A DNA stretch of 64,000 nucleotides, taken from the NCBI RefSeq assembly GCF_040436345.1, contig NC_133238.1, forward strand, positions 11,038,150-11,102,149, read 5' to 3'. Shown piece after piece: positions 8,697 through 64,000 of this stretch. Source of the stretch: Pagrus major. Taxonomy: Eukaryota > Chordata > Actinopteri > Spariformes > Sparidae. The position numbers and the translations under genes are program-made. The notes below the pieces were generated by a model that searched no databases, was not told the DNA's origin, and worked only from the letters and a program-made list of their open reading frames with translations. Numbering within the stretch: position 1 is the first letter of the stretch; each line of letters begins with the position of its first letter.

Positions 8697-11065
8697 ACGC
8701 GCAGTATTTAGGTCCTGTAAATTATTCTCATTATGGAGCTATGGTATTTCTGCTTGTTCTCCTTTGTCGTTCCACAGACCTCTTCAGTTGAGAAGAGTCT
8801 TCAAGGGGTCTTTAAATGCAGAGACGGTGATTTCAGCCACTAAGAGTCTCTCAATCGAAATAATGAAAAAAAAGAGACATAGTTTGATGACAGGTCGTAG
8901 CGTAAGATCGTGGGACTGGTCTTCATTGTTAAACAACCACTATTGAATGCATATTGTTGAAAAGAATGTGGTCTAATTCATTCATTCAGTCAAGTAATGC
9001 ATAAATAAGGCACCTTATTCTGACTTTGGAGTGTCGGTGCATTATTTCAAGGTGCTAATGCTAACCATGTAGCCACACTAGATAAAATAGCTACCTTTGC
9101 CTTAATAAGCTACTTTTGTTGGGGTACGTATATTTGTAGCAGTTAGTTACCAAATAAAACCATGTCAAAATAAACGGTGCATAGCTGCTATGAAATTGGG
9201 CAAATTGAATGTTAGTGCTAAGATTGGAGTTATATTTATGTAAATGCCAGTGGTTGGGCATTTGTCACAGAGGGGGAAATAATGTCGCTATCAGAAATCC
9301 CCATATCTGCAACTTGGAATTTTAACTACTACTACTTGTAGTTTGTGTGTGAATGCTGAGGAGTCTGTTGTCGGGGGTTGTGTTTGTTTGGGAGTGAACC
9401 TGTGATGTCTGTGCAGGTTTGACAGCTTTTTGGAATGGTCAAACAACAACTGTATATACCGAGGTGATGTGCAATCCAAGGTTTAGTCAGCATACGATCC
9501 AGACGTTGGCACTTGGCCTCAAAGTTAAGGTTTAAAAGTGAGAACCTCTCAGTCTGTTAACTACAAAATCTGCTGTCTTTGTATATTCTTCCTCTAAAAT
9601 GTAACTTTTAATGTGCACTTTAATATTACATACCACCCGCTGAACACTTAAGATTAACGTTGGTTTTTGGTTGTGTTGTTGTAATATTTATTTAATTGAA
9701 CTAACAAGGCATTGCTTGATTATACAGTTGCTTTGGCCTTACTTAAAACTGATGTGAAGTTTACTATTGGTGCTTTTGAGATGAGTAGCAAAGCTGTACC
9801 AATTATTATAAATGTTAGTAAAGGCTGGCCCAAATGCCTCGAAGCTTCTACCTTTTCTTTTCCAAGAAAATGTTTAATTAATCTGCACATTGCTTTGATG
9901 AGCATGTGCTCAACCCTTCCTAGGTAAGGCAACAGCTCTTGGCCTTTTATACTTTGGAGGTGGAGATGGAAAAGAAAAGGTGGAATATACTTCCCCTCCC
10001 ATCTTTGTCTCTAGACATATAGTTACAGCAACAGCAAAGTCTAGAGGTAAATACACCCCACCTCACATGAAGCTTCGAATATTGGCAGGAGATTCTCACT
10101 GGAGCTTCGAAGCTTCAAAAATGTTATTCAGGACAGCCCTAATGTTGGTCCTCAACATAGTCCTCAACATAGTCCTCAACATAGTCCTCAACATTTGACG
10201 GATCATATTAGCTGTTGACCAAAAGCCAACGTTAACGTTTACTTTGAAGTCATTGAGATTAGGTCTGGTGTCTACAGTTCTTGTGGGGCGTTGGGTACAT
10301 ATCACTCACCCACCAAATGATACACCAATGCTCCATTGTTTTGCGTTTAGATGGCTTTAACCAGGGCTCTCCGGGGCCCAGTGGTAACCAGGGTCAAATG
10401 ATGGGCATGAGTGGAAGGGGAGGAGCCGTTGGCCCAGAGGGAACGACAAATATGGGGACACCATTGATGTCAGAGAATGGAGCCATGGTAATGTATCAGG
10501 AAAAATAAGATTATCTCTCAATTAGTGATTCATTGAAATTAAAGCCATTTTCTTTTCTTGTAGAATATACAATAAAACTTCTGAAAGCAATACATTGCCT
10601 CAAGTTGTTCTAAAAAATAGAAAATAGAAAACTATAATTTGGCTTCTACGATACGATAAAAGTAGTTATTGACTTTTAGAATAAGCTTACCTGAGAAGCA
10701 TTATTTTGAAGTAAAAAATACTATATCAAGTTTTGAGTGACTTGAAAATTGACCTGAAAACTCGATTCTTAACTAAAAGTCTCCTTCCTCTCTCTCCCTT
10801 TGTCTGCTTGGTTCCACCAACCTTTTATTCTCGGATGGGGACACTTGGATCAAACATAACCCTGATCGATGACCTTTGAAAACCCCATCACTTTTTGTGG
10901 ATACACTGTATTTGTGTCTGACCCCCAAACTTTTTTCCCATACAATTGTTATGATCTCGCAACATTCCCGTCTTTTTTGCAATGCTGACCCCATGATATC
11001 ACAGCGAAACGATAGATACCCGCAGGGTGGATCAATGGGGGGCCGACCAGAAGTTGAGTCCCCAA

Positions 11066-11096
<31 letters not shown>

Positions 11097-11241
11097 GTCG
11101 CAGCCGCAGCAACAGCAGCAACAGCAGCAACAGCAGCAGCCACCATTGGGCCCTCAAGGTGGACCTGCCCCAGGATTTGGCAGGGGGAATCCGATTGGGG
11201 GAGTCTTTGATGGGCCAAATAACAAACGCCGCAGATACTAA
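651..11241 (+). CDS. pspc1: paraspeckle component 1 (PSPC1), DBHS-family RNA-binding protein, complete
   Basis: PSPC1 is a nuclear RNA-binding protein that dimerises with NONO or SFPQ and works in paraspeckles and transcription/splicing control. Coding exons: 651-1034, 1621-1770, 1881-2032, 2575-2670, 2787-2983, 3211-3295, 3504-3609, 7726-7783, 10351-10487, 11005-11241 (1602 nt, 533 aa, all GT-AG). Domains: Pro/Gln/Ala-rich N-terminus (1-80); RRM1 about 84-155 with RNP2 LFIGNV and RNP1 [11 protein letters not shown]2 about 156-237 ([19 protein letters not shown]); NOPS about 239-292 ([18 protein letters not shown]); long charged coiled coil about 290-390; C-terminus ending NKRRRY, a typical DBHS nuclear-localisation tail. 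The stretch [17 protein letters not shown] and the NDRYPQ and GFGRG motifs near the end match PSPC1 rather than NONO or SFPQ. A poly-Gln tract in the last exon is unlike mammalian PSPC1 as I recall it. The start was chosen for its strong Kozak context and its acceptable N-terminal length. Confidence 0.93.
3700..3722. repeat. short (CA)n microsatellite
   Basis: A short run of CA dinucleotides in pspc1 intron 7. This intron (3610-7725) is AT-rich. Apart from this run and small AG (about 4123-4139) and TATTG (about 4630-4650) simple repeats I see nothing coding in it. Confidence 0.7.
8608..8695. repeat. long (GT)n microsatellite
   Basis: About 88 bases of nearly pure GT dinucleotides in pspc1 intron 8, followed by a short CACGCGC stretch. 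It is the longest simple repeat in the window and is expected to vary in length between individuals. The open frames it creates (poly Cys-Val) are artefacts of the dinucleotide. Confidence 0.95.
9690..10145. repeat. possible interspersed element remnant
   Basis: This part of pspc1 intron 8 repeats the palindromic word GAAGCTTCGA and variants near 9840, 10070 and 10105, and ends close to GACAGCCCTAATG, a phrase I associate with ends of teleost DNA-transposon fragments. I could not find a matching inverted end on the left, so the borders and class are uncertain. Confidence 0.3.
10147..10194. repeat. 12-bp tandem repeat, four copies
   Basis: Four head-to-tail copies of a 12-base unit (GTCCTCAACATA) in pspc1 intron 8, with the copies almost identical. 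No function is apparent. Confidence 0.9.
11065..11142 (+). repeat. CAG/CAA tract encoding poly-glutamine in PSPC1
   Basis: In the last pspc1 exon, two runs of ten and eleven glutamines (mixed CAG and CAA codons) are separated by Ser-Gln-Pro. The mix of CAG and CAA should make it more stable than a pure CAG run. Poly-Q lies in the low-complexity C-terminal region that DBHS proteins use for condensate assembly (family knowledge), so length changes could affect paraspeckle formation (inference). Confidence 0.9.
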
Positions 11242-24700: not shown

Positions 24701-27700
24701 GATTCCCTGACCCCACACCACACTCAACTCTCAGGCTAACCAGCTATACATCACAGTATATAACACAGTTTACATAATGAAGAGCGCTGTGATCTCTTAT
24801 CAGTCTCTGAATCTGAAAAATCAAGTCAAATCAGGATCAGGCAAATTTAATATGTCAGTATTTGGAAGATATATTTGATGAAGGACACCAGACTGAGAGA
24901 GAGACAGACATCTGAAGTGAATAATCTAATAAAATCTATTATTTAATAAACGAGGCACTGACTGACCACGCATTATATGAAACAGTCTTTGTTCAGAACG
25001 TGACGTCACCACCGAACACGCCCTCTAATAGACAAACACTTTAAACTTTAATGTCTCCTTATTTGACTCAGTGAGCTGTTCAGCATTACCGGTCAGTCAC
25101 ACTGGTTCAAAAGCAAGTTTCTGCATCACATGCTGTCGGTACGATATGGCAGAGATTTGGAAGCTGACAGTAATCCTGGCAGTATTTTTGATCAGCAGCC
25201 TTTGCAATAAGTGTCTGAGGAATGATCTGTTTTGTAATTGTACTGAAACTATTTCAATGTGTAAAATGAAATACATCAGTGATTTTTGTCTCCATGTGTT
25301 TGTGTTCCAGAGAGAGCTTCCTGGTTCCTGTGTGCCCAGAGAGCTGCCCGTTGGTCCAGTCCTTCCTCGTCGGCTCTGATAGGTCGTTTCTTCTCCACGG
25401 TCACGCTCAGCTCAAGACCGGGATGCAGACCCAGGACAGACACCTCTTCCTGTTCACTGACACGCTGGTGATCGCCAAAGCCAAGTAAGCACATGTGTGT
25501 GTTGCTGTATTTTAATCCTCGTGCGGAGCCGTTCAGGAACATTTTGGCCGCTCCTCGCGCCCTTCACCTGTGAATCAGGTTAATACCTGCGTCTAATGTT
25601 AAAATTGGAGTGTGTGTGGGCGTTTGCACTGGTGCTCATTTCTCTGTGTTTTCAGATCAGCCAACCACTTCAAACAGAAGGCCCAGGTGCGTGTGTGTGA
25701 GATGTGGACGGCCTGCTGCATGGACGAGGTGTGTGAGGGCAGCACGAACCCCGAGAGGAGCTTCGTCATGGGCTGGCCCACCTGCAACTATGTCGCCATG
25801 TTTAGGTAACAAACACACCCGTAAATATTTGAAACCAGTCCAGTGATGTTATTATTTATGTTGCTATGAATCTGCACATACACTGTACACAGAAACACAC
25901 AAATACTGACACATACTGGAATGGCTTTCATTTATAAACAGATAAATAACTGAGATCAATCTCATAAACACAAAAACAGATGATCCAGCCTTTTTTTGTC
26001 TCCTTATTCAGGCTCCTGGTTTATGTTCATGCTGCCTTACGTCAGAGGCTGTAAAATGTGTTTATGCTTCATTAGTAAATATGTTGGTGATGCCGTAAAC
26101 TTGACCCTGAATGCAACACGAAGATAAACCAGACAGGATGAGCCATAAAGACTTAAATTCTTAAGTCTTAAATTTGGATTTGTGAGGTCTTATACCTTAT
26201 TCCTTGGTTAAAAATACCTTGAAAAAAGTGGAAAATACCATCAAATTTAAATGTCTGACACCTGTAGACGACACCATGTCCTGCTCAACCTGATATTGAA
26301 ATCTTTTCCGACTAGAACCCATTAAAACTTGTTAACACTTATAAATCCCATTAAAAGATTAAAAACTATATAACCACGCACTGCAGTGATGTGTGACTGT
26401 GACGTTCTCCTCCGTGTCTCCTCAGCTCAGCAGAACAGAAAGAGAAATGGCTCTCCCTCCTCAAAAGGTAAACTCCTTTTAAAGCCTCCACACATCAACA
26501 TTAAGTGTGTCCACGTGTGTGTAGAGAGAAATCTCACACGTCGTGTTTTCCTCTTTGATTTCCCTCCAGTCGGATAAAAGAAGAGAAGGAGAATGAAGAA
26601 CCTAAAACTATTCCTCTGAGAGTGTACGGGAAGGGGATCAATACTTTTGCCGTCGTAAGTTTGCATTTTTTCCCACTTTGAGATGATGGTACATGATTTT
26701 CTGGCTCTGTCACTTTTATTAATGATCCAGAGATGAAATGTTAATGTGTGTTGAGAGTATGTGATCCTCTGTTGATCCTGTGTGTGTGTCTGCTGCCCTC
26801 TCCCCCTGATTAGACCAAGACGCTTCCCGTCAGCAACTGGGATTCAACCAATGAGGTGGTGCGACTGGCCCTGCAGCAGTTTAGCATCATAGTGAGTGAA
26901 GAAAATATTTTTTAGCCCACATTAATGCAATCATGTAATAATATCAGTTAGAGTTAGACCAATATATCGACCTAAATCAGCTTGTTGCAGATATAGCATA
27001 TCGGTAAGCAACCAGATTTGTATTTGTAAGAGAACAGTTTGTATCTTGTATCGGTCAGGCTTTTTTTATTATATTCATTAATCTAGTGTTGTAATCACAG
27101 CAGCCAGCTGCTCTGTTTGCTGTCCCATCAGATAAGCTAACCAATCACGGAACAGATAAAATTGAAGGGGTGTTGCTGTCCATTAAAGCAAACTTATCTG
27201 ACGATGGCTGACCTTGATAAAACAAATGTCACACAGCAGTACCGACATTTTCTCACCGACATAGGAGCCCTGTAGCCTCACCGGCCAGGTTACACAACGC
27301 GCATGTGATGTAAACACGCAGCATGTGAAAACTGAGAGAGAATACTTGTCTTTGTCACATCTCGGCTTCCGAATACGTATCCCTTCCTGCACCCTGCAGA
27401 AGAGCCTGGTGTGGTTTTTGAGGCTTCTTGTTCTCCGAGGCTGTGAAGAGTGTGTGTCTTGTTTCTCTGACTATCTTTGTCTCTGTTTCACACAGGGAAA
27501 TGTGAAGGACTTCCAGCTTTGGGTCATCTCTAAAAGAGACAACACCCCCTATCCTCTCATCGGTCAGTGAGCGACAGCTAGACTAGTTTGACAAAATGTC
27601 ATCACTTCCTGTTGTTGTGTGGTGTGAATGTTTTCTGAAAAGGTTTGAGAAGCAGCGCTCTGAGTCTTGACAGAGGGGTGAGATGTTGTTTCAGACACAC

Positions 27701-30700
27701 TAGTACCATTCATTCCCAGAGAAGTGTGTTGTGTGATGTTGCTCCTGCTGGGAAGGAACCAGGGGTAACAGCGTGTGTGTGCTGACGAACATTGTGATGT
27801 TGTGGTGGTGTTGATGCTATAGCAACTACAACGAGCCTCCGGGGAGTGATGTGATGCTGCCTCTCCTCTGTCTCAGGTCATGAGTTCCCCTTCAGTATCC
27901 AGATGAGCCATGTGAGACACTCTCAGGGAGGAGGCGGTGGTGGAAGGGACGCAGCTGCATCACCTGCGGACAGACAGGAGGCCATGCAGGTGGAGCAGCT
28001 GCAGGTGTACAAGCAGTGCCAGTTCATCCTGAAGCCTCGACCCACTGACATAATGCACTTGTCTGTGGGGGAGGTCAGATCAGAGTTGCCTCGGAAGTCG
28101 TTTAAAAGGAGGCGCTCTCTGATCACCTGGGCCTTCTGGAGAGGCTCCTCCTCTCACCTCAATGAACTGTCCCTCGGCGTGGCTCGCGGCTGCCTGTTCG
28201 GACAGCCGCTCAGCTCTGTTTGTGTGGAGGACGCTCTGCCGAAGCCAGTCATGGTGAGTGGGTACATCTCAGATCGTATCAAAACGCAACAGATCAAAAT
28301 TGAGCCTTCTAGTTTGAATCCATCAACCAAATCATGTTTATGCATCTGCAGACATCCTCAATATGTTTTAAAGTCAATCACATCAAACTGAAATATTTTT
28401 TTTGCTTTGTCTTCCTTTGAGAAACGAGACCAAGTGTCTACTGCCATGCTAGCAGCCTTATGAGGCTGTACGCTAAACGCTAACCTGCTCACAATAGCAA
28501 TGTTAGCATGTAGATGTTTGACAAGCAAGTATGACGTTTATCTTGTCAACATTTTAGTTTGTGTTGGCATGCTAACATTTGCTAAATTGCACTAAACACA
28601 AGTATAGCGGAGGTTGATGGGACTAGATTAAAGGTGCAATATGTAAGAATTGGCCACGTGTCAAATCCAAACCAATCAGGAGCAACATATCACCAGAGTA
28701 ACTGCTAACTGCTGCCAAATGTAGCTGCTATTAGATTGTTAACTCAGTTAGCCATGCAGCTAGCAGTTTGGCTACAGTTAGCAGCAGTTAGCGGTTAGTC
28801 TGATGATAAGCTGCCCCCTACTTGTTTTGAGTGTGATTTTGACAGGTGGCTAATTTTTTTAAGACTGAAACAGGCTGGGGAACAATTTGAAGCACACTGG
28901 ATGTCCACTGGAGGGGGTCATACTTCTTTCCTCCGTCTTTCTCATTCAGTATTGTAATGGTAAACAAATAGCAAGAAACTGTTGACTTCCTGTCCTCTCA
29001 CCAGGACATGCTGGCGTTTCTGTACTCCGAGGGTTCATGGACGCGGGGGATCTTCCGTCGGCCGGCTGGAGCTCGGGCTGTCAGGGAACTGCGGGACTCT
29101 CTGGACAGCGGATCGTCTCACCTTCCTCTCACAAAAGACCACGTCTTTATCATCGCTGGAGTCTTTAAGGTGCAGCAGTATGAGTGTGTTCGTCTCTGTG
29201 TGAATATTTCAGACGGATTTGAAAGAAGCACTCATATTCAGGTGGAATTATGATCTTACCTGTTTAGTTTGAGAAATAATGGGTCTGTTACTTTATTGAC
29301 CCACATCTGTAAGCACAGAATTAATCTGCATTCATCCTACTCAGCCTGTGCGTGACAAGCGATGCAGCTTCGTTATCAGGACAAGCTGTTCGGATTGGTT
29401 TGTTAATGTGATCGGGATTATAATGTCTTATTATCTGGAGGGATAACAGAGCTTCTGTGCACGAGTGTTTAAACTGAGTCACGTCTTCACATGGCAACTC
29501 TTTCATATCCATTATTTTTATTTGTCACAGTCACGGCCCATTTTCATCTCACTTATACCAACTCATAAAAATGTCTCACACCAACTCAGTTATCCAACAC
29601 AGTCATTTGTAAATTTCTTTTATACTGAGTGATACATTTTCAGTCGGACATCATCTTGCGTGCATGTTTTCAGGATTTCTTGCGCAGCATCCCGGGCAGC
29701 TTGTTGTGTTGCGAGCTGCATGAAGAATGGATGGACGTGCTGGAGGAAGAAGAGGACGAGGAAGAACAGGTGCAGGACGTAAAGAGGTAACATGCACAGT
29801 CTGTTTAGTGCCTTTTAATGAGATTCCTTACGGTATTTTAACCACTGAAGAGTGTCAATGTTCAAAGTCGACACAAAACACCATTTTATTCTTTTCCCGT
29901 TCTCTGCTTTATGTCTTTCTGCAGGATGATTTGTCGTCTGCCCAAAGAGAACGCGCTGCTGCTACGCTACCTGTTAGCCATGCTGCACGGTATTCAGAGC
30001 AACGCGCAGGAGAACCAGATGACCACTTTCAATTTATCAGTGTGCATCGCTCCCAGCTTGCTTTGGCCTCCTGGAGCGCCTTGTAGCCCTGAGGTGGAGG
30101 GAGAAGGAGCTAAGAAGGTAAGAGGGGGAGGAAGTTCACCCTGTTGCAGCTTTGAAAAAAGGCTGATCAGACTGTTTTTGTCTGAGAAGATCAGCTGTGG
30201 TGAGCTGAAACTCAGTCGCTTTTATAATGGATTCCATTTTTTGGGTTTACAATGAATGATTGTGTAAATGAAACACCAGGTTATGTTTAAAATCAACCAT
30301 TTTCTGGGATTTAATTTGTATTCAAGCTTATTCCTAACAACAATATTTTGATATATTTTTCCAAAAAGCTTTAAAGACCTTAAGTGGGATCAGATTTTGA
30401 CACTCAATGACATTTCATTTCATTCTGAATATCAGTTTAACAGCGAACAATTTGTGGAATTTGACCCAGACCTCAATAGAATTGGCCGTTGTAACTTTGG
30501 CTACTCCTGCTATAATGACTTTGTAACCCAGGATTGTTGCAACACAATTAAATCAGTGTGTCTAAGCCGAGACACGGCTCAGAAACAAAGAGAAGTTTGT
30601 TGGTTTTGTCTGCAGGGCATTAAAAACAGAAAAACAACTGCTTCTCCTCTGATTCGGATATAGAAATTCTTTTTTACAGCTTGTTTACACAGTATTTTGT

Positions 30701-33596
30701 ATTATTTGGTCTTAAAATATTCATTCACACACGTTGAACTGCCTAAACAGTCAACTTAATGATTTCTGTTTGTTTAATTCCTGTATTAGTGAGTGCACTG
30801 TAACACCTCTGACCAGCTTTTCTTATAGGAATGTCTCAAATTAGCTTTCTAGAAAGGATAAAACGTCTCATTTTAGAGCAGTTTCACCTTTTGAAATATG
30901 GACAGGAACAGAACAAGCTCTAGAAATAAGGTCAGATGAAAGCACACTGACACTCGATCTCTTGTTTTCAGCACTTAAAGTGTAACATTTCTGGAACAAA
31001 GTGTTTCCATGCAGCCTTGAAAACACTGAGAACACTAAAACAATTGTTTCACTTGTTAAATACCAGTTCTCTTCCTGTTGTCTGCTGCAGGTTTGCGAGC
31101 TGGTGAAGTTTATGATTGAACACTGTCAGCAGATTCTGGGAGAGGATCCGTCCTCTCTGTTCGGAGGGCCGCCACAAAGATGCAACACTGACGATTTGGG
31201 ATCAGGTAGAAAAACAACTGACATATACTGAATGTTTTTGTTGAAGTCTCAACTGGAGAGGGGTTAACAGTCATGGTACCGGTCTACTTCCTATTCATCT
31301 TCTGCATGTATTTTGAGTTTTGTTTCGTTCCCAAGTCCTGAGCAGAAAAATATATATATATATATATATTGCAAACAGTTTCTCAGTCTTCCTACATCTG
31401 TTTTTCTGTTCTCCCTCAATTCTCGTCGCTTCTCCTGGACCATCAGACCCGTGGCTGTTCCCTCTGACCGACTCATCCTACGACAGTCTTGAGAACGAGC
31501 TGGACAACAGCAGCGGTGGCTCACCGGGCTTCTGCAGCAGAAGGCAGCTCAGACCCAAACCACTACAAGGCAGCATGGACTCCATCCTCACATTCAGCGA
31601 CTACGACCCAGACACAGACCCGGATATAAACCAGACCCAAACCGACAGCCTGCACGGCCTCAAGTTAAGAACCAGAGGCAGGAGGCAGGACCCAGACCTC
31701 TCCTGCCACAACCAGGATGCACCACCTGTGGACAACTCCTCCCTCCTGGACTCCCTGTCTCTGGATGGTCTGCGCAGACAGCGGCGGCGCTCAGAGCCAG
31801 CTATAGCATACATGGCCAAGTTTGGACCGTGTGCTTCAAGAAGCACTGAAGGTCTCACTGGTGAGGATAACGATGGTGAAGAAGAGCCTGCCAAGAAGCA
31901 CAGCAGCCTCACTGTCCCAAGAGGTCAGACCAGGATGGGTGGAGGTGAGCATGGGGTGAGGTCAGCAGCTCTGGACACGAGCTTGTCCAGCCTCTCCTCT
32001 ACCCCCGTCTCCCCTGCACCAACCAACTCCCCCCTGGACTCTCCGGACTCCCTCAGCGGTGACAAAACCTGGATGACCAGAAGGACGCTGCAGCCAACCA
32101 AGACAGACCTGCCCAACTCCTCCTCCTCATCATCTGTTCCCTCCTCCTCTACACCCGTCACCATCACCTCTACTCTGACCTCTAGCGGAAACCCAGACCA
32201 GGGGACCTGTCCAAAAGGCTCCCCACCTAAAGAACCAGTCAACTGGGGGACTTTAAAAGGCTGCAGGGGCCTCCACCCAAACTCCTGGCTAAAGAAAGGC
32301 CGGAGGCTGTCACTAACCCAACAAGACAATTTAGAGAAGGAAGAGGAAGACAAGACTGGGGTGAGTCTTATAGCAGATTATCTAAAATCAAATTATACGC
32401 ACTATTAATGCCACTATGGATGTAAAACACATGGGATCTTTAGATGTTGAATGGTTTGTGAGCAGAAGGAGTGGATAATCAAAATCCTGCCATAACGTGA
32501 CACGTGTGACATTACAGGGACAACCAAAGGCAACCCAGTGAGACACATTACGTGGCTGGACTGTCAGGACATGTAGTGAGCATTTGTCACAAACCATTCA
32601 ACACCTTAAGATCTCTGCTGGTACTGAGCCACTGAGTGACCTCACTGGAGGCAATTTATCATATTACATGTAGCTTCCTCTGGAGCCACAGAAGGCTTTA
32701 TGCTACTTTTTCCACATATGCAGTAGTACTCCACAAGACCTGTAAACACACTTTAATGTGTAAAATTGGCGGAGTTACCCTTTAATAAGTTTGGATTTTT
32801 CTCCCTGTGTTTCTTCAAGCAGGGAGGACCCACTGACAAGTCGCTCACTCTTGGGAAACTCATCCCAGAGAAAGGAAAAGCAGGCGAAAAGGGAGATGGG
32901 AAACGCATCTCCAGCAGCCAACCCAAGCCCAAAACAACCTGCAGGACCTCAAAAGATGGAGGAGGTGGTGGTGTAAAGGGGAAGCCTGCACAGGAGTCCC
33001 ACAAGTCTACACATCTTAAACAGAACTCATCCAGCCCTCCTTCCCACCATCGCTCTACAGGGAGCCTCCACTTTCCTAAATCTCCCTGGTCCCACTCCTC
33101 AGACACACATGCCAACAAAGGAGGTGGCACCAACCACAGCCACGCAGCAGAAAGTGAGCTGAAGCAGCCGTCGCCATCTTTATTTTACAAGCAGAGTGGG
33201 CCATCTCTGTCTCTGTTCAAGCAAAACAAGTCTCACTCCGTGGAGGAGCAACACCACCCCAGGCTCTACCAGCGCCGGGGCTCAGAACCCGGACGGCAGG
33301 TTGTGGAGCGAGCCTCCACCCTCGCGCGGGCGAGGCTGCCCAGCGACCCAGGACTGAAGGTTACAGAGGTGGACGCACAGGGCGGGACGACAGAGGCCCG
33401 TTTCTGCCTCTCCCCGTACGCCACCAAAGCTGTGAAGGACTACTTCTCCTCTCACCCGTGCAGTAACCCTCAGAGCAGCCAGCAGGTGGCGCTCGCTCTG
33501 GTGGAGAGTCGCAGGGAGTGGGTGAAGAGATGCAGCGACCCCTCAGCAGAAGCAGACTTTGACCAGCTTCTGTTTGCTGAAGAGTCCTACGTCTGA
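18790..33596 (+). CDS. arhgap20: Rho GTPase-activating protein 20 (ARHGAP20), complete
   Basis: ARHGAP20 stimulates GTP hydrolysis by Rho-family GTPases and is linked to Rap1 signalling through a Ras-association-like domain. Coding exons: 18790-18861, 22702-22787, 25311-25484, 25656-25805, 26426-26467, 26570-26654, 26814-26891, 27496-27562, 27877-28253, 29005-29169, 29674-29786, 29925-30117, 31091-31205, 31447-32360, 32823-33596 (3405 nt, 1134 aa). Conserved N-terminus MDNMSPQQ, then a basic RRQSAPSLVISKAL motif; PH domain about 65-170; Ras-association-like region about 180-280; FKRRRS-ITWAFWRGSS linker typical of the family; RhoGAP domain about 360-545 with the catalytic arginine finger in GIFRR (Arg395); then the conserved TDSSYDSLENEL motif and a long Ser/Pro-rich tail ending ESYV. 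Start chosen because MxxMSPQQ matches the mammalian N-terminus as I recall it. The last exon has a tandem NAG acceptor. Confidence 0.92.
20140..20330. repeat. interspersed repeat copy, family A
   Basis: In arhgap20 intron 1. It begins with an AATCAATTAATCG motif and continues with CAAATGTGAGGATT and GACTGCTTGTCCG. It aligns by eye with the copy at 155-330. Confidence 0.65.
20940..21020. repeat. interspersed repeat fragment, family B
   Basis: The phrase GATGGATTGACATGAAATTT followed by a GACATTCATG word matches the order of words in a longer copy at about 43755-43980. This wording is common in teleost introns. It lies in arhgap20 intron 1. Confidence 0.55.
22940..23070. repeat. interspersed repeat fragment, family C
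   Basis: In arhgap20 intron 2. The phrases CAGGATTACACAAAAACT and GATTTCCACAAAACTTC, followed by a GGATGGG word, are those of a repeat widespread in fish genomes. This rests on memory of the family, since no second copy was found in the window. Confidence 0.45.
24345..24440. repeat. interspersed repeat fragment with GCTAA units
   Basis: In arhgap20 intron 2. The phrase CCAGTCTTTGTGCTAAGC with repeated GCTAA units followed by GGCTACTGGCTGTAGCTTC is a common teleost repeat segment. Only one copy is seen in this window. Confidence 0.5.
25001..25008. promoter_or_regulatory. perfect CRE palindrome (TGACGTCA) in arhgap20 intron 2
   Basis: A full 8-base cyclic-AMP response element lies 303 bases before exon 3, in locally less AT-rich sequence. 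An ATG at 25279 is in frame with exon 3, so a transcript beginning here could encode a shorter protein that keeps the PH domain. A perfect octamer of this kind occurs by chance about once in 65 kb, so it may be fortuitous. Confidence 0.3.
26130..26275. repeat. interspersed repeat fragment (AGTCTTAAATTT words)
   Basis: In arhgap20 intron 4. Short palindromic words (CTTAAATTCTTAAGTCTTAA) are followed by ACACCTGTAGAC. It resembles a common fish repeat. Borders are uncertain. Confidence 0.4.
26948..27065. mobile_element. truncated copy of the 17560-17920 inverted-repeat family
   Basis: In arhgap20 intron 7. It starts with a degenerate TAGAGTTAGACCAATA end, contains ATATCGACC and CATATCGGTAAG words, and ends with GTATCGGTCAGGCT, which matches the right end of the element at 17560-17920. 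Confidence 0.5.
28440..28625. repeat. interspersed repeat fragment (GCTAACATG words)
   Basis: In arhgap20 intron 9. The repeated words GCTAAC, TTAGCATG and GCATGCTAACATTTGCTAA, ending in a GGTTGATGGGA phrase, belong to a repeat very common in teleosts. A shorter stretch with similar words lies at 21310-21355. Confidence 0.6.
28628..28870. mobile_element. MITE-like element copy, family D
   Basis: In arhgap20 intron 9. The left end TTAAAGGTGCAATATGTAAG is followed by about 120 bases homologous by eye to the element at 34421-34751. Near the right side GACAGGTGGCTAATT is inversely complementary to the left AATTGGCCACGTGTC, so the transcript could fold back. A bare left end of the same family occurs at about 15729. 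Confidence 0.6.
31350..31370. repeat. (TA)n microsatellite
   Basis: About ten TA dinucleotides in arhgap20 intron 13, shortly before exon 14. Confidence 0.85.
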
Positions 33597-35524: not shown

Positions 35525-36266
35525 ACATTACTTTTCACTCTATACACAGATATACGTGTGTGCTCTAGATATGTACAATCACATGATGAAATTATACGGT
35601 TACATGGAGGATTTGATCAAACCAAACAATGGCAGGGGTATACATGATGTGGAGAATAAAATAAAATATGTTGGGGAGGATTTCTGCATCAGCACATTCT
35701 CTAATGCGAACATTGATGACTGTTAGTTTTACGTTTCAGTCACAGGAGTCAGCCGTCTATCTGTTCATTTACTTTTTTAGTAGATATGACTAGAATTTAC
35801 ACACAAAGAAAGTGTTTGATGTGTCCGTGTAAATTCAGTCATAGTTACAAAATGAAATACAGTCTTTGATAATCGAAGGCACAGCCACAAACGAGAGGTG
35901 GACAGCAGTGACAGGTTGGAATCTGAGTGTTAATAAATGACGAGTTATATTTGTTTGGACCAACCTTAAATCAGGGCGGATTAACAGTTTACAATGATAC
36001 AATATCATATACACATCATATATATTGTCTTATAATTTACTGTTTCACTCTATAAAAATCTCCTTGTGCAGTTTGACCTTCTAGAAAAAATCCTGTATTA
36101 CTCATCTGTGACTTGGAAAAAGGAGGAGATACTGTTGCCGCCGAGCAGATAGAGCGGTGCTGGCAGAGCTACACCTAGCATCCATCGTCCCCGTACGTAC
36201 ACGCACGTCGTGCCCTCAGTTCTGACCGGGCAACGACCACACTGTCTGCATCTGCAGGGCTGCCGG

Positions 36267-39200
36267 TTAAGAGGATCCGTCTTTGCTCTGTCGGATGTCC
36301 GCTACGCTCTCTGGAACCCTGGCCACCATGCCGTCCAGTGACTTGGTCAGACAGATCTGGCAACCCAGACGAGATCTGAAGGGAAAAATGAGAACCTTTT
36401 ATTATTGTTTGAGGAAAATATCAGGCTCTTTAGCTGCTGAATGCACCACCACGTTCAACAGCTAATCGCTAACTATGTCTGTCTACTGTTTTATGATGTT
36501 TTGTGTATTTATTTATTATTTATTCCTGGAAATGACACCAATGAGAGCAATTAATAGACCAAAACAAGGAGCTGAAAGACACTAAAAAGCTCCATCGTGC
36601 ATTGTAACTGAAGAGTCTGTTTTCTTGTATCATTTTGAGTTAATGAGCTTGTTGAGCAGTAACAAGGGAGGAGCTCACTTGTGTTTACTCCTTTGTCCCC
36701 CGCTGATTAACTGATCTACTCTGACAAATCTCATTACCTCAACAGAACCATCTCATCAGCATCAGGCAGTGTGAAACCACTTTCCTAAAAAGGATCAAGC
36801 TGACATTGACCATCTTATCACTTTTATCAACACATTACAGAGAAAAAACTAACACGTTAAATAATCTAATTAACAAGTACTGTATTTATGTTTTATAACA
36901 TCCTTACGTGTCGGTCAGGCCGTACGCCAAGTCTAGCATGTCCATCTCCTCATCTGTGACTCGCCCCAGGTTCTTGTAGACGTCCTCGTCAAAGATCAGA
37001 TGGCACGTGGAGCATGCCAGGGTTCCCTCACACGCTCCTGAAGACACACACACACACACACTTTTACTGCACAACTTTATCTGATGGATGAGGTGGAGCT
37101 CAGCCACGAGGCAGCCATCTCTTTCTGTGTGAATCAAGTCGGACAGGTCTTTGCATGCCAGTGAAGAGTGTGAACATTGAAAGTGGTAAGAGACGGCAAA
37201 AATGTGAGGGAGAGAGGTCGCTGGTTACACCAATCCAAACACTATTCAGTGTGTGTGCTGACGTACCAAAGCCGTCAAAGTCGAGGTCCTCATTAATAAC
37301 AAGATCTAGCAGTGAGTCTCCAGGCGAGCCCTTCACTGTGATCTTCTCCCCGTCTCTGTTGATGAAGTTGACAGTCACCTTGTTGTCTGACCTGAAACAC
37401 ACAGAGAAGAGTTTCAGCCTCAGTATAAAGTTGACTTACACTTTGCTGCCCTCTGGTGGTCAGAGCTCATCACTACATACAGAGGAACGTCAACAAGTGG
37501 ATATAAAATCAGATTTTAAAGTCTGATTTATTCATCAGAGCACAGTTCATGTACCAAGAAATGTTCATTCCCATTTAAAGTTGAGTGTAGGAAGTAAAAT
37601 CTTCACACTAAAAATATTTTAAATTCTCATCAATGAAATATTAAGAGCTCCAACGATAGACAGAAAAGAATCTGCAACTATTTTAATTTAATTTTTAATT
37701 TTAATAATCGATTAATCATTTAAGTCATTTCTTTAGCAAAATGTAAAAATCATTTGATGGTTTCATCTTCTCAGATGTGAACAGTTGCTGGATTTCCTTG
37801 TTTCACGTTACAGTACATGTAATATTTTAAATGACACCCGCTAAATCCACTAAATCTTTTGAGGAAACCTAACCTTCTCACTTCTTTCACTACGAGTCAC
37901 TGTGCATCAGGGAAAATTAACATTTATAAGACCTCACATATTATATACATCAACATGAAATACATGTTAAACCTCTGTGACAATCCCTAACTGTATTCGG
38001 CAAATTAATGTTTCTTTACGGCCTAATTTAGTTTGAGGATCAACATTTATCCGATTACCATCGCCAGGCAATTCAACGTTTAATGACAAGTGAATGTTTA
38101 GGTGCAGATTAAATTAAAACGCCAACTTTTTCAGCTTTATACCAGATAGGTTTGAACAAGGATTGGAAACAATAAAGTCAGATTGTGAAAAGAACTCTGT
38201 CGACTGTAAGCAGAACGTGAACAAAGTCAGCATTTTGCATCCAATGAATTTTAGCACAGAGAGAACTAACGCAGCAAGTCCTTTTTCACCAAACACCAAA
38301 ATGAACCACTGCTCCACGTTAATGCTTCAGGGAGAACGTACCTGAGCGATGCCAAACTGATGCAGCCACTTATTCATCTACTTCAGAGTTATTTGTGAAC
38401 CAAGGCTCACTATTATCAAAGGCTACAGACTCTTTCCATAAACTAATATTCAGAGGTCGTACAACTTTTTAGGAGTCAAGCACTTTCAAGTTACCCAAAA
38501 CAACTTCCAGACTCTTGAAGCTGTCACCGTCACATCTTGTTATTATAAATGCAAGTGCGAACAACCCATAGCAATCAACATATATAAATAGTCACTTTGG
38601 TTTTTGTTCCAGCTAATAATTAGAGCTGCGATGATTTTGATAACTGATTAAATTAAGTCAAAATTCTCTGATTCTGGCTTTTTGAAATGGGACTAATTTC
38701 TTTTTTTCCCCCTCTTCTATGACGGTAATCTGAATATCTTTGGGTTGAGGACAAAACAAGACGTGAGGACGTCATCTTTGTCTTTGGGAAACACTGATTG
38801 ATTCATCATGATTATTCCTTCTTCCCAATTTCAGGAGACAGAAAAGATTTGGTCATAATATTTGTTTTTCTTAAATATAAAAACATTTTGGTTTGCGTGC
38901 GTGAATGTGAAGATGAAACACCAGATTATGTTGAAAATCAAGCTTTTTTTCAAGGATTATATTGAAATTCCAGCATTTTCCCCAACATTGAAAACACAAT
39001 GGTTAAAATCAAGCTTTTCTCAAACCCTTAATAACAAAATGTGTTTGCAAAGTTCCCTGACATTCTCAGTCAACAGATGAAATGCTCTCATTTCCCGGCC
39101 ATTACCATTAAACTCAATGACCTTCTGCAAATCTCCAGACTAGTGGAAACCCTGTTTAATCCTCTTAAAAAAATATATGTCAATTACCAAACTTTACTCC

Positions 39201-40176
39201 ATGACCTTTTAAGACATTAGCAGGAAAAGTGCATGAAACTTTGATCACCAAGTGTTTTTCTTTAAAGAATGAGAGTTATGGGAGGGTCAGGGCCAGCCAT
39301 GCCCGCCTGACGTGAGCACACAGGGACAGTGCTAACCGGTTTAAGGCCAAAACTCCAAACCTTCAACCTGAGCTGCATGTCAGCGCTCATTATGCAATTC
39401 AACAAGTTGTTTGGCCCTGGGATGCCCGGCCTCAGTTAGAGAGCCTTGTACCTGAACAGAAGGATGGATCTCTTCAGCCTTGTGGACACATTTATGATGA
39501 TAACTACCAGTCTGTGTGTATTTTCTGACATAAACACACCTGTTTTCACACAGTTTCAGATTTTCATATAAACTCAAATGCAAACCTGATCAGGTTGTTT
39601 CATTCCTGCAAGTCAGTTTTGTTGATCTGTTTACCTTGGAAAAAAGGTTTCACACCAAACTCCATTCAAAATTATGACATTTTTGAGAAACCTCGGGGCT
39701 TCATGAGGCAGTCTCAAGTTATATTGTGATACTAATGAAGGAAACAAACATTATCAAACATACTAAAGTTCAGCTTGGTGTTTCCTGCACACATGTCTCA
39801 ATATTGAGGACAAAATGAAGTACTGACCCCACCCAAAAAAGGGATAACAAAGCGAGATGAATCAGCCTGCACACTGTAAAGGTCTTTCTACCTGATACTG
39901 TACCAGCCGCACACTGATAACAAAGGTCATATTTAACTGCCTGTTTACTGAATGGAGTTTGGTGTGACAGACAGTGGTGAACCTCGCCGAGTTCAAGCTT
40001 AATATTTGAGCAGTGCCCTCTTGACAAAGTGACATAACTTACCTCAGAGGCTGTGTTCCGGTGGTAAAACTCCTCTGACCCGTGAGCCAGGCACCTGAAG
40101 TTACCGCCGCCGTCCGCCGAGAACATTCACGTAACCGAACATGAGCTAGTCTCCTCAACGCGGTTACCAGGGCCAT
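36267..40176 (-). CDS. fdx1: ferredoxin 1 (adrenodoxin), mitochondrial 2Fe-2S protein, complete
   Basis: FDX1 carries electrons from ferredoxin reductase to mitochondrial cytochromes P450 (steroid synthesis) and takes part in lipoylation and Fe-S metabolism. Exons on the - strand: 40176-40043, 37391-37267, 37037-36908, 36375-36267 (498 nt, 165 aa, GT-AG introns). The first exon encodes an Arg-rich, acid-poor mitochondrial presequence starting [15 protein letters not shown]. The mature domain starts near [16 protein letters not shown]. The four cluster ligands are Cys89, Cys95 and Cys98 ([11 protein letters not shown]) and Cys135 (RLGCQIC), with the same 37-residue spacing as human FDX1. The acidic interaction helix ([15 protein letters not shown]) is intact. 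Length is a little below human FDX1 (184 aa), mainly through a shorter presequence and tail. FDX2 is less likely, because the IFEDHIY/DEENDMLD-like region and tail follow FDX1. It is convergent with arhgap20, as in human. Confidence 0.93.
37640..37830. repeat. interspersed repeat copy, family A (diverged)
   Basis: In fdx1 intron 1. It contains AATAATCGATTAATCATTTA and CTTCTCAGATGTGAACAGTTG words in the same order as family A copies. Confidence 0.5.
38620..38830. repeat. interspersed repeat copy, family A (diverged)
   Basis: In fdx1 intron 1. AGAGCTGCGATGATTTTGAT starts it. ATCTTTGGGTTGAGGACAAA matches the GACTGTTGACCGGACAAA part of the copy at 155-330. The rest of this 2.65-kb intron shows nothing coding. 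Confidence 0.5.
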
Positions 40177-42019: not shown

Positions 42020-42046
42020 GCTCAGTGTTCATCGCCGCCGTCTCAG
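42020..42046 (+). other. putative 5'UTR exon end of the lectin-like gene
   Basis: A GTCTCAG|GTAAGC donor at 42046/42047 and a TTCACAG acceptor at 42157 fit a non-coding first exon spliced to the exon with the start codon. The 5' border is not visible from sequence. Confidence 0.5.
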
Positions 42047-42158: not shown

Positions 42159-45100
42159 ATGTTCAAGTTAGTGCTGCTGTTCCTGACGCTGTCAGGTAAG
42201 AACCCTTCTACGATAGTTTTTATGTTTATTTCATATCTGTCAAATGTAGTCATTCTTGTGAATTCTTCTTTGTCATTGATGTGTGTCTCAGGGTTTGTTT
42301 TATCATGAGCAAAATATCCGTTTCTCTACATTGATATAACTAGATGTTTTACTTCAAGATAGTTTTATTACACACAGCCTTGGAGGTTTTCTAATGAATC
42401 AGTTTTTTAAAACTTTATTATTCTGAGATCATACCAGAAGCGGTTTGACAGCTTCTCATGCAAAACAAAACAAAAAATAGCACAATCGAAATCAAATAAT
42501 CCTGACATAATGTCAAGATAATACAATATCTTTCATGTAATCAAGAAAAAAACAAAACAAAATATATTTTGCTTCTCGTGATCAATTTTCAATTGTTTTG
42601 ATGTACCAAGCTTTTCTTTGACATTTTATCACATTAAAATCTGGTAAAAAATGTCAACTTTATAAGTCCCCTATGGGCTTCTGTATTCATATATTTCCAT
42701 TGCTAATTAGATGTCTTGATAGACTGTTATTTTGAAGATGTACATCACTGCTTCCTGTAAAAAATGTGAGAAATATTTTTGAGACTCAGCCAAACAATTT
42801 AAGAACACATTTATTCCTTTTGACAATCCAAGTTAATTGTTCCTTCTAAGAGAGTTAATTGATCATTGTCAAGCCAAAACTAATAGCGGCCTCGTTGCCT
42901 CGGCAGTAAAAGTGTTTACTGGGGCAAATAATCTAATCAGTTGGACTGACGTATGCAGATATTAGACTTTGGCCATTATTGATTTATTACACTGTTAAAG
43001 AAAAGCTGTGCCCCACATAGTTTTCTGGCACAACAGTTAATAATTGATGTAATAGGCCAAACAGTTATGTATCCTATAACTGGCAAAGGTATTTGTTTAA
43101 TCGAGGTTGTGAATTCAAACACTAACTGTAAAACAAACAACAGCCTTCACAGGCCTCCAGGCTGCCCCACTTGCAGTCCCTAGAAGATTGCAGAAGACAT
43201 CTTCAACCTACCGGCTCCCTGATGGCTTTCGACAGGGCACCGAACACTCCTACATCCGCCGGGCTCTTCCTGACGGCTTCAGACAAGGTACTGAGCCCTC
43301 CAGGAGAATAATTGTTGACCTCAACACCGGCCGGATGCAAGAACACATCAGTGAGATGGAAAGGAGAGTGGGTAAGTACATATTCAAACCCTATGAGGAA
43401 CTAATGACTTTAAGGGTCATTTGTCTCATTTTGGCTGCTTATTGATTAGATGGAATGACACAAATATGCTAATGTAAGTACCTATTTGAGAGAGTTCATT
43501 AGCAACAAGACCTGAGAACATTTGTACATTTCTTCTTCCAGATGTCGCCCGTTCTTCTCTGGGAAATAGAGAGACGGAAAGAAGACACTGGCTGACTGAT
43601 GAGGGTGAGCAAATGCAATCATGATTTATCCTCCACTACTTTCAGCCCTCACCTACAAGAAACTATCAAGATACAGCAAAGATGTTTATAAAACTACATC
43701 CTATTTGGTCATAATGGTGTCATTACTCTTTGGATCAAAATGTATGTCTGTTAGTTGGTCTACCACTTTGGTTTCAGGCTTAAATATCTCAACAAGCATT
43801 GGATGGATTGGCACAAATGTTGTACAAACATTCATTGTTCCCAGATGATGGATCCCATAACTTTGGCGATCCATTGACTTTATTACTAACAGCAGATTGA
43901 AATTTTTGAGTTGTTACAAAAGAATCTCAACTATTGGATAGACTTATGTGAAATTTGGACACTTATGGTCTGCAGAGGACAAACTATAATAACTTGTAAT
44001 AGATACTAGATCCACCCAAAGTACATTAGCCTCACATAGCCACTAGCATGGCTGTAACATCTTCGTCTTGTATTGAATGTACTTAATAGAATATCACTAT
44101 GTTCAAGTCTGTATAATCTAAAGAACATCTGTCTTCCAGTCGCTGTTGATGTTCCAGCCGAGAGAAGTGGTGCTGGTTGGGTCCGGGTGGAGGAACTCTC
44201 TGCTCCTCGTCTTCCTGACGGTTTCAGACAGGGAACTGAACCAAAGATGTCTATCCCTGTTGGTTTCAGACAGGGAACTGAACCTTTCATGTCAATCCCA
44301 GAAGGTTTTAGACAGGGAACCGAACCAGTTATGTCTGCCTCAAATGGTCTTAAGATAGAAGCAGAAGCTGTGTTGTCTAGACAGGAAATTGAACCCATCC
44401 ACATGGTCCCAGACGCCTTTCGACAAGGAACAGAGCCATCATCTCGTATCCCAGAGGGCTTCAGGCAGGGAACCGAACCAGTTATGTCTGCCTCAAATGG
44501 TCTTAAGATAGAAGCAGAAGCTGTGTTGTCTAGACAGGAAATTGAACCCATCCACATGGTCCCAGACGCCTTTCGACAAGGAACAGAGCCATCATCTCGT
44601 ATCCCAGAGGGCTTTAGGCAGGGAACCGAACCATCTTCTCGTATCCCAGAGGGCTTTAGGCAGGGAACCGAACCATCCTCTCGTATCCCAGAGGGCTTTA
44701 GGCAGGGAACCGAACCATCCTCTCGTATCCCAGAGGGCTTTAGGCAGGGAACCGAACCATCCTCTCGTATCCCAGAGGGCTTTAGGCAGGGAACCGAACC
44801 ATCTTTTCGTATCCCAGAGGGCTTTAGGCAGGGAACCGAACCATCCTCTCGTATCCCATTGGGCTTCAGGCAGGGAACTGAACCCTCCACCAATAGCCGC
44901 CAAACACAGACAGTGGCATGCAAGGGGGAGGTCATCAATGGAAACTGCTACGAGTTCAACCCCACTCCACTGGCCTTCCAAGAGGCACAGGTAAGAGACA
45001 TTATCTCTCACATTACAAGGAGGGTAATACAGCCCAGTTGAACTTTAACTGGTGAGTCCATGTCACCGGAGTCTGTGTGGCTCTGTAAATACAATCTCAC

Positions 45101-46617
45101 ACTTTTCTTTGTCCTTTGTTCTCCAGGCCTTATGCAGAGCTCTCGCCCCAAATGCTGAGCTTGCATCTGTAACCAGTGGTGATCTGCATTCCCGCCTGGT
45201 CTCCCTGGTGACCAAGGGTGGGAAGAACCACCCTGTGTTGACCTGGCTCGGAGGCACGGTCAAGGCAAGTTCCTCTCATCAACACTCAACAACCCACATT
45301 TTGAAGGAGACTGTTTGTTCTGAAAATATACACTTTCTTTAAAGAGAAAGGAGAAACATTAGAATCTCAAATCAACATGTTTACTTCATGCGCTCATCGA
45401 CTGTGACGCCAGCAGTCTGGTCTTGTACTGTGGCACAGACTGGAGGCCAAGGAGACTATCATTAGATATGTTATCAACAGACAGATAGTGTTATTCTTAC
45501 CTTGGTGAAACATTGACCTTTAAACTTTTTATTTTAGGATGTTCCATCTGTGTCTGTACAAGTACATTTTCCTGATAAAACTTCTGTACTGTTACATAAC
45601 TAAGACTTTTAACAATATTTTTTTTTAAATAAGAATGGTTTGTGTGCAAATGTTTGATATACTGTATATATGTTGTGTTGCACACCTCAGAACCAGCAGG
45701 GATCGTGGGTCGATGGGTCAGAGTGGAGTTACAGTGACTGGATGCCAGGTCACCCCAACATTCACACTGATAAGCCTGTCTGTGTAGAGATGTTCAAGAT
45801 AGGTAAGAACTGCACTCACACGCTACACACACAGTAACACACATTAATCACTGACTTTTGTCTGAAGTCAGCATTTCTCAGAAGTCTTCTGTGTCAGACA
45901 GGCAGACCATTAAAGTGAGACTGCGAGCCTTGAAAGAATAAATAACACATTTGTTACTTTAAAAACTAAATGTTGAACTTTGTTGCTCTGTCATGCACAA
46001 GTTACATGTGCTCGCTTTAACATCCTTACGAAGAAGTATTAATAGTTAAAGTACTATGTGTTATCATAATGCACCTTTAAACCAGAAAGAACCAACAAGA
46101 TCAGGGTGTTGTTTAATCTGTTTAATCTGTGTACCACCTCTTTTAGTTCCCAGTGTCCCAGGACTCATGACTTATTGATAAAATATGTACTCGTGTATGT
46201 GTTACACATTAAACAATAGAGCTTTAGTTGCGCAACGACTCAAAGGGTTATGGGTCAGGGAAGCTCATATTACTCTCTGACTGTCTTGGAAAGATAATAA
46301 AACACTAAAATATTAACTTGTATGGTGTTCTTGGCCCTTTCGGCACAAAGGACTATCTCCCCTTGGATTTATTTACTCTTTGTTCTTTCCCTTATGCATA
46401 ATTATAAAACATTTTTAAGTGGCTTAAACAGTGCAGATATTTTATACTCTACCAGACATGTTGGGTTCAGTCATATTTTACTTGATGCTCTTAGAAATAC
46501 TCTATGAATGTGTGTTACAATCTGTCCCTACCGCTGTTTGCAGATGAGAGCTGGTGGACAGCCAACGATTGTGAACTGAAGAGGGCGTCTATCTGCTCAT
46601 ACTCGATCACTGCATGA
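42159..46617 (+). CDS. secreted C-type-lectin-like protein with GFRQGTEP tandem repeats, complete
   Basis: I do not recognise a named gene. Coding exons: 42159-42195, 43144-43371, 43542-43604, 44140-44990, 45127-45264, 45691-45802, 46544-46617 (1503 nt, 500 aa). Residues 1-19 (MFKLVLLFLTLSAFTGLQA) form a clear signal peptide and no membrane segment follows, so it should be secreted. Two repeats with core GFRQGTE lie at about 37-70 and thirteen more at about 133-362. The C-terminal C-type lectin-like domain (about 370-498) has all six cysteines of the long form, TWLGG (for WIGL), and GSWVDGSEWSYSDW. The calcium-site motifs are altered: HPN (460-462) replaces EPN/QPD, and AND (483-485) replaces WND. 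CTLD wording (CYEFNPTPLAFQEAQ, WVDGS, ICSY) recalls eosinophil major basic protein/PRG2-type domains, but this is only suggestive. Intron 6 uses a GC donor. A role in binding or matrix is inference. Confidence 0.82.
43755..43985. repeat. interspersed repeat copy, family B
   Basis: In intron 4 of the lectin-like gene. It contains TTAAATATCTCAACAAGC, TTGGATGGATTGGCACAAAT and ACATTCATTGTTCCCAG in the order typical of a common teleost repeat. A fragment of the same family lies at 20940. Confidence 0.6.
44208..44890 (+). repeat. coding minisatellite: 42-bp units, thirteen GFRQGTEP repeats
   Basis: The 42-base (14-residue) unit encodes IPEGFRQGTEPSSR. Units from about 44600 to 44850 are nearly identical at the DNA level, with several copies base-for-base the same, while the outer copies (PDG, PVG, PLG variants) have diverged. 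A 153-base block (44328-44480) is repeated at 44481-44633 with a single difference. The period is a multiple of three and has no stops, so long artefactual open frames also appear on both strands. Confidence 0.95.
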
Positions 46618-46727: not shown

Positions 46728-46733
46728 AATAAA
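46728..46733 (+). terminator. poly(A) signal of the lectin-like gene (AATAAA)
   Basis: AATAAA 111 bases after the stop codon, followed by a GT-rich downstream element (CATGTGTGTGTTTTTTATG). The 3'UTR is therefore short. Confidence 0.8.

Positions 46734-49340: not shown

Positions 49341-64000
<14,660 letters not shown>

Follow-up and report, generated by a model that had tools for sequence, protein, structure and literature searches.

What would a lectin-like protein do with fifteen copies of one hexapeptide? This question is raised by a gene within 64,000 nucleotides of the Pagrus major genome (NCBI RefSeq assembly GCF_040436345.1, contig NC_133238.1, positions 11,038,150 to 11,102,149 of the forward strand); this whole stretch is called the window below, and all coordinates are counted from its first base. 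Its predicted product is secreted and carries an array of 14-residue units with the core FRQGTE in front of a C-type lectin-like domain (CTLD). A first-pass annotation of the window had suggested that the array is either an O-glycosylated stalk or a source of small peptides. Here we propose, tentatively, that the CTLD is of the kind found in fish antifreeze proteins (AFPs) and in EMBP, and that the long, probably flexible array of FRQGTE cores would serve as a polyvalent ligand.

The seven joined coding exons (Table 1) form a single frame of 500 codons plus stop, and among the exon-boundary variants tried, only this join came out open. The intron ends are GT/AG throughout, except for one GC/AG intron after exon 5, which opens with GC at 45264/45265 (AAG/GCAAGT). 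A non-coding first exon ending at 42046 is plausible. Exons 2 and 3 have phase 1 at both ends, and skipping them would preserve the frame, although exon 2 encodes the end of the probable signal. It might be objected that the model is wrong, either because the repeat exons and the CTLD exons are transcribed separately or because the gene is dead, and the GC donor, together with the fact that the join is predicted from genomic sequence, can be cited in favor of this objection. However, the frame is uninterrupted across all seven exons, the introns have GT/GC-AG ends, a polyadenylation-type signal is present, and exon 4 by itself encodes the array together with the initial 24 residues of the CTLD, such that we give almost no credence to a wrong model. 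A tblastn search across the window (E up to 10) revealed no further copy of the gene; the hits were its own exons, the array in antisense, and two others with weak E-values of 8.1 and 9.5, which were regarded as chance.

The N-terminus of the protein is hydrophobic, with a best 19-residue mean hydropathy of 1.79 at residue 4 and a maximum of 0.65 beyond residue 30. From this hydropathy, read without a signal-peptide predictor, we infer that the protein is secreted and cleaved near residue 19. The mature form would have a computed mass of about 53.4 kDa. The six cysteines are found at residues 370, 379, 396, 470, 486, and 494, and none occurs earlier than residue 370. The 500 residues do not contain an N-glycosylation sequon. 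Two SG pairs are present, one of them within the sequence AERSGAG, which could be a glycosaminoglycan site and is included in the most acidic 30-residue window (residues 108-137, pI 4.2). The earlier description of seven exons yielding a 500-residue protein, with a probable signal, two repeats in exon 2 and thirteen in exon 4, and a six-cysteine CTLD, was confirmed.

The internal structure of the array turned out to be less regular than had been described. The FRQGTE core is present in 15 units, of which two are encoded by exon 2 and the other 13 by exon 4. The octamer GFRQGTEP, which had been reported as present in 15 copies, is exact in 12 of them, whereas two units read AFRQGTEP and one reads GFRQGTEH. 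Also, the inner units do not all end with TEPSSR, as had been stated. Only 7 of the 15 units end with SSR, two end with VMS, and SFR, KMS, FMS, STN, SRR, and SYI were found once each. When the exon 4 array was enumerated by its period, which keeps decayed units in the count, 17 segments were obtained: 13 intact units, two copies of ASNGLKIEAEAVLS, and two copies of the short RQEIEPIHM. These four decayed segments of two types were absent from the earlier description. Two of them have lost five of the six core residues, and the two short ones carry SRQEIE at the FRQGTE position (three changes, judged by eye). None of the 17 exon 4 segments has only one or two core changes.

The array cannot be attributed to chance, because about 6e-5 FRQGTE copies would be expected from the composition and because Tandem Repeats Finder reported three rows across it, with scores of 148, 546, and 650. 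The two compared copies of the 153-bp duplication (Table 1) differ at four bases, all within the first 18. Because this tandem duplication is recent, the number of units may be polymorphic. The array is rich in P, G, S, T, and E, contains 38 S/T in 228 residues, and has almost no net charge. Disorder-promoting residues make up 69% of residues 116-369, and this region lies just on the disordered side of the charge-hydropathy boundary (0.409 versus 0.42). The pLDDT of a single-sequence AlphaFold model of the repeat region was 46.5, and almost no helix was present in this poor model. The array is thus probably unstructured and flexible, judging from its composition. A 313-residue open reading frame (ORF) opposite the array (44006-44947, minus strand) was rejected as a gene, because the 42-bp period is a multiple of three, such that any frame without a stop in one unit will remain open along the whole array.

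Next, we compared the silent and replacement differences between the units. The six FRQGTE codons of the 15 intact units occur in eight distinct DNA versions, which are separated by at least nine changes (13 on the minimum spanning tree), and all of these changes are silent. The proportions of synonymous (pS) and nonsynonymous (pN) differences in the core were 0.76 and 0 for the 15 units; restricting the comparison to the 11 distinct units gave 0.80 and 0. When the G/A and P/H positions were added to the core, pS was 0.63 and pN was 0.024. In contrast, the six flanking codons yielded a pS of 0.46 and a pN of 0.37 over the 15 units, and 0.55 and 0.43 over the distinct units. The chance that nine independent random changes would all be silent is 0.9e-6 to 8.5e-6 (transition bias 1 to 4). 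Homogenisation between units does not explain the core pattern, because silent differences would have been erased as well. To us, this pattern suggests that the precise FRQGTE sequence is under selection in the intact units, whereas the four decayed segments indicate that part of the array has escaped from it. The contrast between core and flanks fits better with a conserved motif for binding or processing than with a passive spacer.

The C-terminal domain was characterized by profile, structure, and gene organization. The Pfam profile Lectin_C matched residues 387-495 (E=1.8e-11, 45.2 bits versus a cut-off of 22.6), and this match and the six cysteines assign the domain to the CTLD superfamily. 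Two weak Pfam matches were below their cut-offs and were rejected, Chordopox_A33R (E=0.0063) as a cross-match and CotJA (E=0.1) as a chance match. The whole CTLD was also compared with the PDB, and the best 60 of 139 matches were analyzed. The best E-values among the matches listed belong to multi-CTLD receptors (IgY receptor, 2.2e-17; LY75, 5.5e-16), in which several weak domains are summed. Among the single domains in these best 60, the mannose receptor CRD4 (1egg, 5.3e-9; 7jub, 5.8e-9) is leading, together with fish type II AFPs (2py2, 7.9e-9; 6jk4, 2.7e-8). In the alignment to 1egg, the positions E, N, E, N, and D, which we take to be the calcium ligands, are replaced by H, N, P, T, and A, and only one of the five is kept. 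The EPN (or QPD) and WND motifs of calcium-dependent sugar-binding lectins read HPN and WTA, and the E two residues before C2 reads P. Because four of the five presumed ligands are replaced, canonical calcium-dependent sugar binding by the CTLD is unlikely.

The intron positions and one rare motif point to the group to which the CTLD belongs. According to the relevant sections of the survey by Zelensky and Gready (2004, PMC514892), AFP-like genes have three introns, which are located upstream of C1, downstream of the WIGL motif, and between C2 and C3, EMBP genes have CTLD introns at the same positions, and EMBPs and most AFPs share a rare G at the fourth position of WIGL. The lectin gene contains introns at all three positions as set out there, and its WIGL motif reads WLGG, with G in fourth position. 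Because of these intron positions and the WxGG motif, the CTLD is placed with the soluble AFP-like/EMBP-like kind, as far as sequence features can indicate it.

This raises the possibility of a simple orthology, in which the gene would be the EMBP/PRG2 (CTLD group XII) of fish and would have an unusual propeptide. The WxGG motif and the intron positions are as given for EMBP in the sections of the survey used here, and EMBP structures weakly match the C-terminal 73 residues (1h8u, E=0.012). However, motif and introns are not diagnostic, because according to the same sections they are common to AFP-like genes, and there was no EMBP among the best 60 of the 139 PDB matches of the whole CTLD. In addition, the hallmark of the EMBP group, an acidic neck, is absent: the last 30 residues before the CTLD have a pI of 9.51, and 0 of the 321 30-residue windows in residues 20-369 are below pI 4.2, whereas the neck of Fugu EMBPL has a pI of 3.62, as given in the part of PMC514892 that covers it. 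Because the acidic neck is missing, the protein was not called EMBP, and we regard this orthology as rather improbable.

For the array itself, several functions have to be weighed. It could be a passive, extended stalk, perhaps O-glycosylated, that holds the CTLD off a surface or matrix. The richness in P, G, S, T, and E with its many S/T residues, the lack of cysteines before residue 370, the recent alteration of the unit number by duplication, and the four segments without the core would all be expected for a stalk. However, a spacer needs a composition and not an exact hexapeptide, and therefore a stalk fits poorly with a core that has been kept through at least nine silent changes with zero replacements in 15 intact units next to freely varying flanks. 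The absence of N-glycosylation sequons also speaks against it. The plain O-glycosylated stalk that had been suggested before is thus a poor account of the array; it fits with the composition but leaves the exactness of the core unexplained, and we consider it unlikely, albeit the next choice after a polyvalent ligand. Alternatively, the protein could be a repeat-peptide precursor. Kallikreins prefer Phe-Arg, and FR-Q is invariant in 15 of 15 units, and therefore a trypsin- or kallikrein-like cut after FR would release 14-residue peptides starting with Gln, which could be converted to pyroglutamate; cuts at the dibasic sites of exon 2 would instead release two peptides. Five RR pairs are indeed present in residues 20-115, and two of them bracket the second unit of exon 2, but this excess is weak (5 versus 2.5 expected, P ~0.07). 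In residues 116-369, which include the 13-unit array, the dibasic pairs that separate repeated peptides in prohormones do not occur at all, although 2.2% of the shuffles of that stretch also lack them. To our knowledge, CTLDs are not usual in prohormones. The idea that single arginines are cleavage sites fits better with the FR-Q arginine than with the arginine of SSR, which is found in only 7 of the 15 units, and overall the precursor is a weak idea that appears quite improbable to us.

Still less can be said for a mineral or egg-coat matrix protein analogous to the matrix proteins of sea-urchin spicules, which we regard as very improbable. SM50-type proteins have a similar architecture, that is, a secreted CTLD and P/Q-rich repeats, in the portion of PMC4336488 consulted. 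However, according to the same portion their low-complexity part follows the CTLD, whereas it precedes the CTLD here, the array has almost no net charge, and the likeness is one of architecture alone, as no search for a sequence link was made.

The explanation that we tentatively prefer is a secreted AFP-like/EMBP-like CTLD protein with a polyvalent array. In this view, a long and probably unstructured array of the 14-residue unit would have been acquired after the signal peptide and ahead of the CTLD. The canonical site for calcium and sugar is probably lost from the CTLD, which would therefore be likely to bind a protein, a matrix, or another surface through another face. The FRQGTE core is displayed about every 14 residues on variable linkers, and for this reason the array would most likely be a polyvalent ligand, which could bind or crosslink many copies of a partner around the target of the CTLD. 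Several points weigh against this explanation. The polyvalent role of the array has no direct support. The units of the core test were picked for an intact core, and they are paralogous units from one genome and not orthologues. Four further segments of the array lack the core, and therefore not every unit is needed. Among the best 60 of 139 PDB matches, the top E-values belong to multi-CTLD receptors, and the top single domain is CRD4 and not an AFP, such that sequence alone leaves the subgroup unfixed. The charge-hydropathy margin for disorder is small, and the structural model of the repeat region agrees with disorder, yet it is uninformative without an alignment. A bolder version is also conceivable, although we think it improbable: a family not described so far, whose CTLD has ceased to bind sugar and tethers a series of conserved FRQGTE signals, either as a polyvalent ligand or as a depot from which a protease releases 14-residue signalling peptides that start with Gln.

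The searches for relatives were made with the repeat region of exon 4 as the sole query. With this region, one pattern match was obtained in viral contigs, and none was confirmed. In genome contigs, 34 pattern matches led to one confirmed locus, in Enterovibrio norvegicus (33% identity, E=3e-5). Its ORF (4935-5723) has several short G/Q-rich units in a row, EGFRQGTEQG among them, and presumably encodes a FliH-like flagellar protein; it was rejected as a relative and regarded as chance similarity. Comparison of the exon 4 repeat region with the PDB (E up to 1) gave no matching chain. A full-text search of the open literature (5.39 million papers), the scope of which excludes most subscription papers and fish protein databases, did not retrieve the repeat strings, and a 14-residue repeat combined with a C-type lectin was also not found in the open literature. 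Searches there for a fish C-type lectin with a tandem repeat, for EMBP in fish, for EMBP-like names together with fish, and for the neighborhood genes yielded nothing relevant-looking beyond the 2004 Fugu survey and antifreeze papers. The protein had previously been called unrecognised. This remains valid for the repeat, for which we found no description in the literature searched, but not for the domain, which is of a known kind, AFP-like/EMBP by its introns and WxGG motif.

Table 1. Features of the lectin gene (coordinates of the window)
Feature	Position	Strand	Description
Coding exon 1	42159..42195	+	Start codon and most of the probable signal sequence (MFKLVLLFLTLS...); ends in phase 1
Coding exon 2	43144..43371	+	End of the probable signal sequence; units GFRQGTEH and GFRQGTEP, flanked by RR pairs; phase 1 at both ends
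Coding exon 3	43542..43604	+	21 residues; both ends in phase 1
Coding exon 4	44140..44990	+	Start of the CTLD, preceded by 13 intact and 4 decayed repeat segments and by a possible glycosaminoglycan site (SGAG)
Exon 4 repeat array	44211..44894	+	Residues 134-361, 14-residue period; FRQGTE core identical in the 13 intact units
Tandem duplication in the array	44295..44633	+	153 bp, 2.2 copies, 97%; both types of decayed segments were copied
Coding exon 5	45127..45264	+	CTLD with WLGG; starts shortly before C1 (C396); the GC donor follows
Coding exon 6	45691..45802	+	CTLD, WVDGSEW...GHPN...C2 (C470)
Coding exon 7	46544..46617	+	End of the CTLD with C3 (C486) and C4 (C494); stop codon
AATAAA polyadenylation-type signal	46728..46733	+	111 bases 3' of the stop codon

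The lectin gene is surrounded by genes that provide an address for locating its orthologues. The start of the window contains an RRM gene that was read as NONO/PSPC1-like. An AGC repeat (11066-11140) gives rise to poly-Q runs in a plus-strand frame (10873-11241), which may be the C-terminal end of this NONO/PSPC1-like gene. Further upstream neighbors are an ARHGAP20-like gene on the plus strand (25270-33596), with a match to RHG20_PH (E=2.6e-11) and two pieces of RhoGAP located between 25270 and 30252, and FDX1 (adrenodoxin)-like exons on the minus strand (36175-40176), which are arranged head to head with the lectin gene and match Fer2 with two joined exon pieces (E=6.4e-5). The long frames up to 33596 have no Pfam match and were added to the ARHGAP20-like gene by position only. 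Downstream, an NBEAL2-like gene on the minus strand (51960-61778) is convergent with the lectin gene; it matches DUF4800 (8.1e-46) and BEACH (6.8e-16), and its match to the neurobeachin propeller was below the cut-off.

Should conservation of the core extend across fishes, FRQGTE would be a new extracellular motif on a lectin-like scaffold, in a countable array whose length is changed by duplication, and it could be asked whether short extracellular motifs gain function by copy number on a secreted CTLD. If, on the other hand, the array is only a spacer, this would be an ordinary case of lineage-specific elaboration in a common type of fish lectin.

Comparison with known systems reveals partial likeness in each case. 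Like PRG2, which is a proteoglycan, the lectin protein has a possible SG-type glycosaminoglycan site (AERSGAG). The EMBP CTLD is basic in mammals. The lectin protein also shares with EMBP/PRG2 a region before the CTLD, the WxGG motif, and, in the sections consulted, the CTLD introns; the differences are the missing acidic neck, the weak sequence match, and the pI of the CTLD, 5.46 here versus 7.1 in Fugu EMBPL in the same survey (PMC514892). The genes of fish type II AFPs and AFP-like proteins also encode a single CTLD with three introns at the places stated in the parts of the sources used, most AFPs have G at the fourth position of WIGL, and type II AFPs rank high among the single-domain matches in the best 60 of 139. 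However, a long repeat array is not mentioned for AFP-like proteins in the parts used of PMC2440524, PMC3499448, and PMC514892, and fish AFP genes have five introns in the part used of PMC2440524, whereas the lectin gene has at least six. In CLEC4M (L-SIGN), tandem neck repeats are encoded by a large exon 4 in front of the lectin domain and vary in number (PMC5794141, in part), which resembles the large exon 4 and the recently changed copy number described here; in contrast to the transmembrane domain and the tetramerising 23-residue repeat given for CLEC4M in that part, the lectin protein has a signal-like start and a P/G-rich 14-residue unit, with almost no helix in a poor model. Lastly, SM50 and its echinoderm relatives are, in the portion of PMC4336488 consulted, likewise secreted proteins that combine a CTLD with P-rich repeats, but their repeat is PQNPNQPG-like and is placed after the CTLD.

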